Below are positions 26,586 through 28,036 of a stretch of DNA of 64,000 nt, one piece after another (the first letter of the stretch is position 1; every line of letters begins with the position of its first letter). The notes under the pieces were generated by a model. That model saw only the letters and a program-made list of their open reading frames with translations. It did not search any database and was not told the origin of the DNA. The DNA comes from Pseudomonas tritici (GTDB taxonomy: Bacteria > Pseudomonadota > Gammaproteobacteria > Pseudomonadales > Pseudomonadaceae). The position numbers were made by a program, and so were the translations under genes. The stretch lies in contig NZ_CP077084.1 of the NCBI RefSeq assembly GCF_014268275.3, forward strand, positions 5,332,001 to 5,396,000. The letters are read 5' to 3'.

Positions 26586-26806
26586 TTCCGGTTCCCTTTG
26601 TTTGGTTGTGCCAATGGCCGCAAGTTTACACACAGGGAGTGGTTTAAACAGAGGGGGGTTAACGGGGGATTAATCTGGAGAAATAGAGAACCCAATGTGG
26701 GAGCAACTGTCTTGATGGTTTTCATCAAGCCATTTTTTCCAGAGGCGGCAACGCTCCCACGGCTGTACTCCGTGTAACTGCTTTAGGAAATAGCTACCGC
26801 AGGATT

Positions 26807-27739
26807 TTAGGCGGCTTGCTCTTTCCATTCAGATCCATCACGGATCATTGCGTTTAGGCGTACCAGCAAAACACGCATACACGCGATGAGTGCCACTTTG
26901 GCGCATTTTCCTTTCTCGCGCAGCGCCTTATATCGCGCGGCAAACTCAGGCTGAAACCGGATCACTGACCAACAGGCCATATACAGTGAGCGCCTCGCGG
27001 CGAACCTGCCGCCGCTGATATGACGCTTGCCTTTGTGCTTGCCGCTATCGTCGTTGTAGGGCGCAGTGCCGCTCAATGCTGCAATCTGATGTCTACCCAC
27101 CTCGCCTAGCTCCGGAAGATAGGACATCAAGCTGGCCGCTGTAACAAGTCCTATGCCTTTGACTGAGCACAGAAGGGCTACTTTTTTACGATCCAGACGT
27201 TCTGTACTTTGGCGGATCAGGCTTTCCAGCTCCTTCAGCACTTTTTGCAAATAGTCGATATGACTCTGCAGCGCAGGCTTGACCACGTCAGAGGAGGCCG
27301 TTTTAAGCCGCCGTTTGTCGTCATCTCTTTGCTGAACAAAGTGCTCTCGCTGTTGGACTAGGGCGCGCAAATCATCCTGCTCGGCGCTGGTAACCCGGCT
27401 ATCGGGCGATTTGATGACCGCTGCGAACTGCGCAAGAAGGCGTGCATCTATCGGATCGGTTTTGGCTTGTTGCCCCATAGCCCGGGCAAAGCTTTTGGCT
27501 CGGCAAGGGTTGATCCGTATGACTTCAAAGCCCGCAGCTTGAAGCGCTTTCATGACTTTGCGCTCGTAACCGCCAGTGGCCTCCAGCAACACTCGACCCA
27601 CGCGATGCAGGGTTAGCCATCCAATTAACCCAGGAAAATCACTCTGCGAATTGGAACAACTCATCGCTACATCCAGTTGATCAACCCGAATCTCGAGGCT
27701 ACCGCTGGAGACATCAATACCTGCTGGATAGGAAAACAT
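26807..27739 (-). CDS. IS110-family transposase (DEDD recombinase)
   Basis: 310 residues from ATG 27739, with AAGAGGA 7 bases upstream. N-terminal RuvC-like domain with the DEDD residues D9 (AGIDVSSGS), E53 (LLEATGGYE), D95 and D98 (KTDPIDARLL). A helical linker with long coiled coil follows. The C-terminal Tnp_20 domain (SVKGIGLVTAASLMSYLP; TAPYNDDSGKHKG with a conserved Ser near residue 232; GGRFAARRSLYMACW) carries the catalytic serine of this family. It appears intact, so the element may still be active. Confidence 0.94.
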   Translation of the reverse strand: MFSYPAGIDVSSGSLEIRVDQLDVAMSCSNSQSDFPGLIGWLTLHRVGRVLLEATGGYERKVMKALQAAGFEVIRINPCRAKSFARAMGQQAKTDPIDARLLAQFAAVIKSPDSRVTSAEQDDLRALVQQREHFVQQRDDDKRRLKTASSDVVKPALQSHIDYLQKVLKELESLIRQSTERLDRKKVALLCSVKGIGLVTAASLMSYLPELGEVGRHQIAALSGTAPYNDDSGKHKGKRHISGGRFAARRSLYMACWSVIRFQPEFAARYKALREKGKCAKVALIACMRVLLVRLNAMIRDGSEWKEQAA

Positions 27740-27759
27740 AGCCAAATCCTCTTACACTC

Positions 27760-27924
27760 AAGGTGAGAGCGCTCTGGCTTGGCCCACGCTTGTAACTGTT
27801 CGAGGTGGGCTCGTTCAACTGTTCGGGCTCAATGACCAGAGTGGAGAGGTGAGTGACAGCATGGGCTCCCACACGTGCTTTAAGCACTTCGGGCATTCAG
27901 CTTGTCACTCACCGCTCTCACCTT
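27760..27924 (-). ncRNA. Candidate bridge RNA (seekRNA) of the IS110 element
   Basis: Upstream of the transposase, on its strand. A closing stem pairs AAGGTGAGAGCG (27924-27913) with CGCTCTCACCTT (27771-27760). Loop 1 is closed by GTGAGTGACA/TGTCACTCAC (27912-27903/27858-27849). It carries GCCCG (27894-27890), an internal hairpin GTGCTT-A-AAGCAC, and TGTGGGAGC (27873-27865). These equal the left REP flank GCCCG and the complement of the right flank GCTCCCACA. Loop 2 is closed by CTCTGG/CCAGAG and GCCC/GGGC. It carries ACAGTTG (27822-27816), hairpin CGAG-CCCAC-CTCG, and ACAAG (27793-27789). These equal the element's own end ACAGTTG and the complement of CTTGT at the other junction. Confidence 0.82.
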
Positions 27925-27925
27925 C

Positions 27926-27931
27926 AGTTTA
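27926..27931 (-). promoter_or_regulatory. Possible -10 box of a promoter completed by circularisation of the IS
   Basis: TAAACT lies just before the candidate bridge RNA. If the element is excised as a circle, its ends join as ACAGTTG-CT-TGTGTC. This puts TTGCTT exactly 17 bases before TAAACT, a sigma-70-like arrangement that is absent in the integrated state. The boxes are imperfect. Confidence 0.45.
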
Positions 27932-27951
27932 AGCCTGGTTCAAGACACAAG

Positions 27952-28036
27952 CGGGCTTGCTCGCGAATGCGGTGTGTCAGTCAACTTATGTATGACTGAT
28001 CTACCTCATTCGCGAGCAAGCCCGCTCCCACATTTT
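27952..28036. repeat. REP palindrome pair interrupted by the IS (right part)
   Basis: CGGGCTTGCTCGCGAATG...CATTCGCGAGCAAGCCCGCTCCCACATTTT forms the palindrome. The missing left arm AATGTGGGAG is at 26694-26703, on the other side of the IS. It lies after the 3' end of hmp. Confidence 0.88.

Follow-up and report, generated by a model that had tools for sequence, protein, structure and literature searches.

The window analysed here, a stretch of 64,000 nucleotides of the Pseudomonas tritici genome (contig NZ_CP077084.1, positions 5,332,001 to 5,396,000), carries on its minus strand an insertion sequence (IS) of the IS110 group, inserted in a repetitive extragenic palindromic (REP) sequence. This work concerns that element and the leader of its recombinase gene, which a first-pass annotation, made from the letters alone, had read as a bridge RNA with the architecture described for IS621. 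The element and its target comprise the following parts:

26704..27949, minus: IS110-group insertion sequence, 1246 bp excluding the duplicated core (five copies near-identical inside these ends and divergent outside; empty orthologous site in a relative, G017)
26702..26703, minus: core CT (AG on the plus strand), right-end copy (ends of the five copies, G017 empty site)
27950..27951, minus: core CT (AG on the plus strand), left-end copy (ends of the five copies, G017 empty site)
27952..27958, minus: left target half AAGCCCG, element strand (copy flanks, guide register)
26696..26701, minus: right target half CCCACA, element strand (copy flanks, guide register)
26807..27739, minus: recombinase (transposase) gene from an ATG, 310 amino acids (PF01548 78.5 bits, PF02371 56.7 bits)

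The listed recombinase open reading frame has 312 amino acids and a TTG start at 27745, two codons 5' of the ATG; we infer the ATG as start from its spacing to AAGAGG. Both Pfam domains score above their cut-offs in the protein, whose PDB matches are two, ISCro4 (E=6e-32) and IS621 (E=4.1e-30). Judged by these sequence matches the element belongs to the IS110 family, IS110 group, its product being assigned as a DEDD recombinase from the two domains.

The host genome (6.24 Mb, a single contig) holds five copies of the element; its placement in Pseudomonas agrees with named relatives at 72-80% protein identity. REP-like flanks occur at all five, though the flanks otherwise differ: the left target half is AAGCCCG at four copies and AGGCCCG at one, the right half CCCACA at all five, and the target reads GCCCG, then the core CT, then CCCACA. 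The orthologous intergenic region of G017 has the REP unbroken with one AG (83.2% identity over 500 aligned positions spanning the joint). In the window the 2-bp AG/CT core is repeated at the element ends; the left end is 210 nt long and holds the RNA, the right end 103 nt. No long terminal inverted repeats were noticed on reading these ends, no dedicated scan having been run. Exact GCCCGCTCCCACA sites number 152 on each strand of the host genome, versus one on each for the reversed pattern; the five IS-occupied REP sites are interrupted and hence outside this count. The supply of REP targets in the genome is not limiting. The neighbours of the element are genes that, going by their open reading frames, we take to be dsbB-like and flavohaemoglobin-like.

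The predicted bridge RNA

The leader, which lies in the left end and precedes the recombinase gene, can be divided as follows:

27760..27922, minus: predicted bridge RNA, approximate extent, one closing stem around two stem-loops (folds, stem covariation; 5' end placed from the junction -10 box)
27848..27913, minus: target-binding loop and stem, loop 1 (fold; 12 of 13 stem pairs changed on both sides)
27890..27894, minus: left target guide (LTG) GCCCG; 7-nt register ATGCCCG at 27890-27896 (string position, relatives)
27865..27873, minus: right target guide (RTG) TGTGGGAGC, containing the core complement AG (string position, relatives)
27773..27841, minus: donor-binding loop and stem, loop 2 (fold)
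27816..27822, minus: left donor guide (LDG) ACAGTTG, the final seven bases of the right end (string position, relatives)
27789..27793, minus: right donor guide (RDG) ACAAG, complement of the core CT plus left-end TGT (string position, relatives)
27926..27931, minus: -10-like TAAACT, 17 nt from a -35-like TTGCTT that needs right end, core and left end joined in a circle (lineage comparison)

All four guide strings stand on the minus strand where the first-pass annotation had placed them (GCCCG 27894-27890, TGTGGGAGC 27873-27865, ACAGTTG 27822-27816, ACAAG 27793-27789). The leader has a second GCCCG and a second ACAAG, so that strings this short prove little by themselves. When the 169-nt leader was shuffled 20,000 times with its dinucleotides preserved, the RTG string (RTG8) turned up in 89 shuffles, the LDG (LDG7) in 530 and both in one, and the ordered four-guide pattern in none; this pattern occurs a single time in the window, both strands considered.

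The nested fold with two guide loops, also claimed at first pass, is borne out by the folding energy, by the consensus fold and by stem covariation. The leader has a folding energy of -76.5 kcal/mol, where shuffles average -50.9 (standard deviation 4.1, z -6.26, 0/200 shuffles as good). In the fold a closing stem encloses two arms, each with its own stem, loop region and small hairpin. Four LTG bases pair across the loop with the RTG in the single-sequence fold; the consensus fold keeps the loop open. The automatic consensus structure has 32 pairs, 16 of them changed on both sides, and 98.2% of its cells are paired, against 87.7% in shuffles and 30-47% when the structure is slid; cells changed on both sides number 79 versus 18.7 in shuffles in the stem covariation test, the structure tested having come from the alignment itself, which favours it. 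Changes on both sides affect 12 of the 13 pairs of the loop-1 stem, and the loop-2 stem shows few compensatory pairs in the automatic alignment. As a separate observation, ACAGTT stands twice in loop 2 (27822-27817 and 27799-27794), the second copy abutting the 5' side of the RDG; the window element and its closest relatives share this doubling, and the more distant relatives in the alignment are without it.

A promoter for this RNA may be completed when the ends are joined. Joined ends give TTGCTT (or TTGACT, TTGGCT), 17 nt and TANNNT in 27 of the 28 lineages compared below, the exception being G1040, and a consensus promoter scan of the linear window found none. A promoter across the joined ends is published for IS621, with which this weak candidate junction promoter agrees.

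A covariance model of the bridge RNA matched only the five leaders in the host genome. Searched against 298 Pseudomonas genomes, it gave matches in 28 of them, at 30 loci. A tblastn transposase match accompanies 23 of these loci (at L225 a remnant only); among the other seven, a transposase piece was found by profile in L210, L221, L222 and L229, and in L224, L226 and L227 the sequence ends at or a few bases from the model match. These 30 loci in 298 genomes thus include no clear orphan bridge RNA. Recoding through an in-frame TGA, marked in seven relatives, was considered for the recombinase and dropped, the tblastn matches being without internal stop.

Target guides and insertion sites in related elements

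The first-pass annotation had proposed that the loop-1 guides should follow the insertion sites of related elements. A recombinase match at E <= 0.001 is present in 120 of 398 genomes of the genus, the window's own counted. For the comparison, element ends were located via motifs common to the elements and not via the guides, and LTG and RTG were read in the register set by the inner hairpin. Of 29 lineages entered 28 were parsed, namely 19 from Pseudomonas, including that of the window, and nine from a family (f14) taken as Xanthomonadaceae from the Rfam description of sX15, the RNA model that found its members; G1019 was dropped before the counts because no right end was found. Four lineages with contig edges or flank gaps (G158, G127, G288, G227), one with two single copies (G1028), one with masked flanks and two that belong to another family at about 39% identity (G188b, G338) were not entered.

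The targets of these elements are diverse. Those of Pseudomonas include GCCCG/CT/CCCACA, GCCCC/CT/CCCACA, ATTCG/CT/CCCACA, GCCCC/CT/TCCTAC and GCCCG/CT/CCTACA; those of f14 include AGTCG or AGCCG/CT/CCTACA, AACGC or AACAC/CT/GARTTA, and TGGAT/CT/ACT. Scored over 17 distinct guide/target types, with five left and four right positions per type, guide and target agree exactly at 141 of 153 positions, and at 150 when G-U pairs are allowed, so that the guides do track the insertion sites as proposed. When targets were permuted among types, the exact score averaged 76.1 with a maximum of 124, the G-U maximum was 133, and 0/200,000 permutations reached the observed values. The two groups taken alone behave alike: the nine Pseudomonas types agree at 74/81 positions (permutation mean 61.4; 43/100,000 permutations reach 74) and the eight f14 types at 67/72 (mean 33.2; 14/100,000 reach 67), permutation figures that are no strict probabilities, as the lineages are related and not independent. 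Sister elements change guide and target jointly, as in G1050/G896 (AACGC/AACAC) and G897/G1034 (AGTCG/AGCCG). In G1044 the guide has T versus C in four of five targets, which a G-U pair allows. A search of the whole leader without a fixed register was noisy: the element's own target came out best in 9 of 14 types including ties, and uniquely best in four.

Some of the f14 relatives (L145-L151, L177, L178) lie in sites that read GCCTAACGC, CT, GAATTAAGC, and their guides match; in L145-L148 the site continues with TTGTTAGGC at some distance. We take these sites to resemble integron attC.

On the donor side, the LDG ACAGTTG and the right end are nearly invariant over the lineages, which is consistent with pairing and carries little information. 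In all 28 lineages 5-6 nt of the RDG match the left end, with the core always inside the match, in the pairs ACAAG with TGT (23 lineages) and ATAAG with TAT (five), only patterns of variants seen by eye having been used for the matching. The core complement is likewise present in the RTG of 28/28 lineages. The left guides are different. In the window both are followed by AA, as the first-pass annotation had remarked, and neither reads the CT core; as a general trait the AA fails, since the dinucleotide varies among relatives. Directly after the LTG, CT stands in five of the 28 lineages and a C comes first in 18; directly after the LDG, CT stands in one lineage, and in six after a one-base shift in lineages with an extra right-end base. 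This extra base before the core is a G (ACAGTTGG followed by CT) or an A (ACAGTTGA followed by CT) and occurs in L076-L082 (G018, G363) and L157-L175 (G880, G897, G1034, G1044); in five of these six lineages the LDG runs ACAGTTG, one base, CT, so that the core is in register one base on.

In IS621, by contrast, the core is described as part of each of the four pairings (PMC11208160), and in the IS621 structure the LTG has nine and the LDG eight bases, both extending into the core (PMC11208158). The core does not enter all four pairings here, a feature which is one paper's statement for IS621 and is not known as a family requirement. As far as their sequences tell, the core is read by the right guides alone in the window element and its close relatives. 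Core-blind left guides are a testable difference from IS621.

The antisense strand

The complementary strand of the leader resembles a known small RNA:

27762..27927, plus: full-length match to the Rfam model sX15, RF02234 (45.7 bits, gathering score 55; E=7.4e-07 for 191 bases)
27753..27758, plus: -10-like TACACT just 5' of the putative antisense RNA, with no -35 consensus seen (loose motif, weak)

At the gathering threshold Rfam gives no match in the window. Run against the whole genome, the sX15 model matches only the five IS copies at E <= 0.001. All of ten related loci match it in antisense, four of which had been fetched by the sX15 model itself; scored independently, the six Pseudomonas loci all match in antisense, with L061 and L095 above the gathering score (59.4 and 56.0 bits). 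In f14, sX15 has a match in 62 of 297 genomes. Among the best-scoring 30 of these 62, an IS110 transposase match, by a profile built partly from the same loci, lies on the opposite strand in 25, its start 22-35 nt away from that of sX15; of the five loci without one, three have at most 101 bases to the contig end, and L127 and L130 have 1500 bases of room. With the window protein, tblastn finds a transposase match in 23 of the same 30 loci. Since the transposase adjoins sX15 on the opposite strand, the sX15 model describes the complement of IS110 bridge RNAs, and on this sequence evidence we identify sX15 (RF02234) as the antisense strand of the IS110 bridge RNA class. sX15 reportedly came to light through RNA sequencing. 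A TANNNT, a loose motif and weak evidence, lies close upstream of the antisense start in 25/25 distinct leaders inspected by eye.

A counterpart has been described in ISPpu9, a REP-inserting IS110 element of P. putida, where a stable antisense RNA, Asr9 (about 180 nt), covers the 5' untranslated region (UTR) of the transposase (PMC8450116). Considered together, sX15 and Asr9 may represent a putative anti-bridge RNA that is a regular part of these elements. In the same description the ssr9 segment of ISPpu9 follows a junction written B-AG-A, for right-end box, core and left-end box (PMC8450116). Because such a junction would carry the bridge RNA promoter, Ssr9 may itself be a bridge RNA. A broader proposal joins these points: IS110-group elements of Pseudomonas and Xanthomonadaceae would make a stable anti-bridge RNA (sX15, Asr9) that pairs guide-for-guide with the bridge RNA and sets the amount of free targeting RNA, and Ssr9 would be a second bridge RNA from a fixed end-core-end junction and not a mere sponge. 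We advance this only tentatively, as a possibility whose chances we put somewhat below even.

A fixed right end-core-left end junction, the mark of an Ssr9-like unit, was found at one site in the 398 Pseudomonas genomes (L201, G284), and no bridge RNA lies behind this lone junction. It stands alone in the chromosome and is possibly a scar. The IS621 work cites ISPpu9 as an example in which small RNAs are believed to modulate expression of the recombinase (PMC11208160). A literature search by title and opening of the abstract, with most subscription journals outside its coverage, found no paper that links sX15 or ISPpu9/Asr9 with bridge RNA or seekRNA. Through the sX15 link a small-RNA family that had been an orphan acquires an identity; the link also suggests an antisense RNA opposing bridge RNAs, which matters for element silencing and for bridge RNA tools.

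Interpretation and known systems

The leader is almost certainly the bridge RNA of this IS110-group element, acting by the mechanism outlined here. The evidence for this lies in the anatomy, the fold, the element ends and the covariation of target guides, RDG and stem. The RNA-protein complex, the chemistry, the circle intermediate and the expression are taken over from IS621, and on that model the sequence of events would be as follows. Excision of the element as a circle would join right end, CT core and left end and so complete the weak promoter. The RNA made from this junction would bind the recombinase. Loop 1 would then pair with the REP target, GCCCG on the bottom strand and TGTGGGAGC on the top strand including the core, and loop 2 (ACAGTTG, ACAAG) with the element's own joined ends; the recombinase would swap strands at the CT and thereby place the element in one of some 300 REP sites.

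Several observations weigh against this reading, in addition to the relatedness of the lineages: (i), in G165 (L040-L042) the LTG ends in G and the target base adjoining the core is C, a mismatch present in 3/3 copies; (ii), G188a, a single copy, is one base out of register; (iii), in G188b and G338 (about 39% identity) no LTG was found by eye, the RTG and the donor ends seeming to agree; (iv), the core bases of the IS621 left guides are missing from the left guides here; (v), further pair types in the consensus structure number 31 versus 29.2 in shuffles, 111/500 of which score as high; and (vi), the junction hexamers of the window, TTGCTT/TAAACT, are weak, with 7/12 consensus bases by hand count. 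The G165 mismatch looks as if the element had come into its host with another REP type. The IS621-type architecture seen at first pass stands in the tracking of targets by guides, the tracking of the left end by the RDG and the covarying fold, and departs from the IS621 description in left guides that skip the core.

Could the leader instead be a regulatory 5' UTR only, whose fold hides the ribosome-binding site until an antisense RNA opens it, as proposed for ISPpu9/Asr9, the guide matches being incidental? A 244-nt UTR and a stable antisense RNA are described in that REP-inserting IS110 element (PMC8450116), and sX15 matches the antisense strand here. Such a leader does not predict guides that track the insertion site across lineages, and we regard it as very improbable as a full account; regulation may hold in addition to bridging. 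Less probable again is that the recombinase protein itself reads REP DNA and that the REP likeness of the RNA is a captured piece of target. Strings resembling REP do occur in the leader, and IS110 elements specific for REP had been described well before any bridge RNA was known (PMC1525189). The guides, however, are no copied REP: each equals one half of the target, the two belong to opposite strands, and a hairpin stands between them. In elements with non-REP targets the same scaffold and register carry those targets instead. We give equally little weight to the idea that the functional RNA is the opposite, sX15-like strand and the sense RNA a by-product, for the polarity and order of the guides suit the sense strand. 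The same is true of IS621, where expression of the bridge RNA from the left end is described (PMC11208160, PMC11208158).

If the leader is the bridge RNA that we propose, the target and donor choice of the element would be readable from its sequence, and its relatives would amount to natural retargeting experiments in which one scaffold is directed to different types of REP, to sites resembling attC and to a further palindrome.

Among known systems the closest described is the bridge RNA of IS621, an IS110-group element of E. coli. As reported (PMC11208160, PMC11208158), it too is a left-end RNA upstream of the recombinase, with a target loop 1 and a donor loop 2, a left guide for the bottom strand and a right guide for the top strand, a CT core and a REP target. 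It differs in having a separate 5' stem-loop, where the present RNA has one closing stem around both loops, in an RTG of four nucleotides in the structure against nine here, and in the REP sequence. For 85.7% of the IS110-group elements in ISfinder a bridge RNA was predicted in 2024; ISPpu10, an IS of P. putida that inserts into REP, is one of the six examples worked out there and is named in the legend of Extended Data Fig. 10c (PMC11208160). Compared by description only, ISPpu10 resembles our element as a Pseudomonas IS110-group element with REP insertion and a 2-bp repeat (PMC1525189), and in its predicted LTG, RTG, LDG and RDG. ISPpu9, likewise compared by description only, shares REP insertion, an AG repeat, a long 5' UTR and the antisense RNA of about 180 nt over it; its copies can hold the extra ssr9 segment after an internal B-AG-A junction, none of which was seen here, and the report predates bridge RNAs (PMC8450116). 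The seekRNA of IS1111/IS110 elements is described as a non-coding RNA that contains, for each strand of the target, a complementary piece. In IS110 types it lies upstream of the transposase gene, as here; in IS1111 members it lies downstream, with the two pieces in reverse order (PMC11187229). Rfam curates sX15, the full model of which matches the antisense of our leader, as a Xanthomonadaceae small RNA, in an entry line without mention of IS110. The bridge RNA found here is thus not new in kind: the kind has been known since 2024, including the prediction for a Pseudomonas REP element. Three things are added to it: the identity of sX15, the putative anti-bridge RNA, and the difference from IS621 in the left guides.
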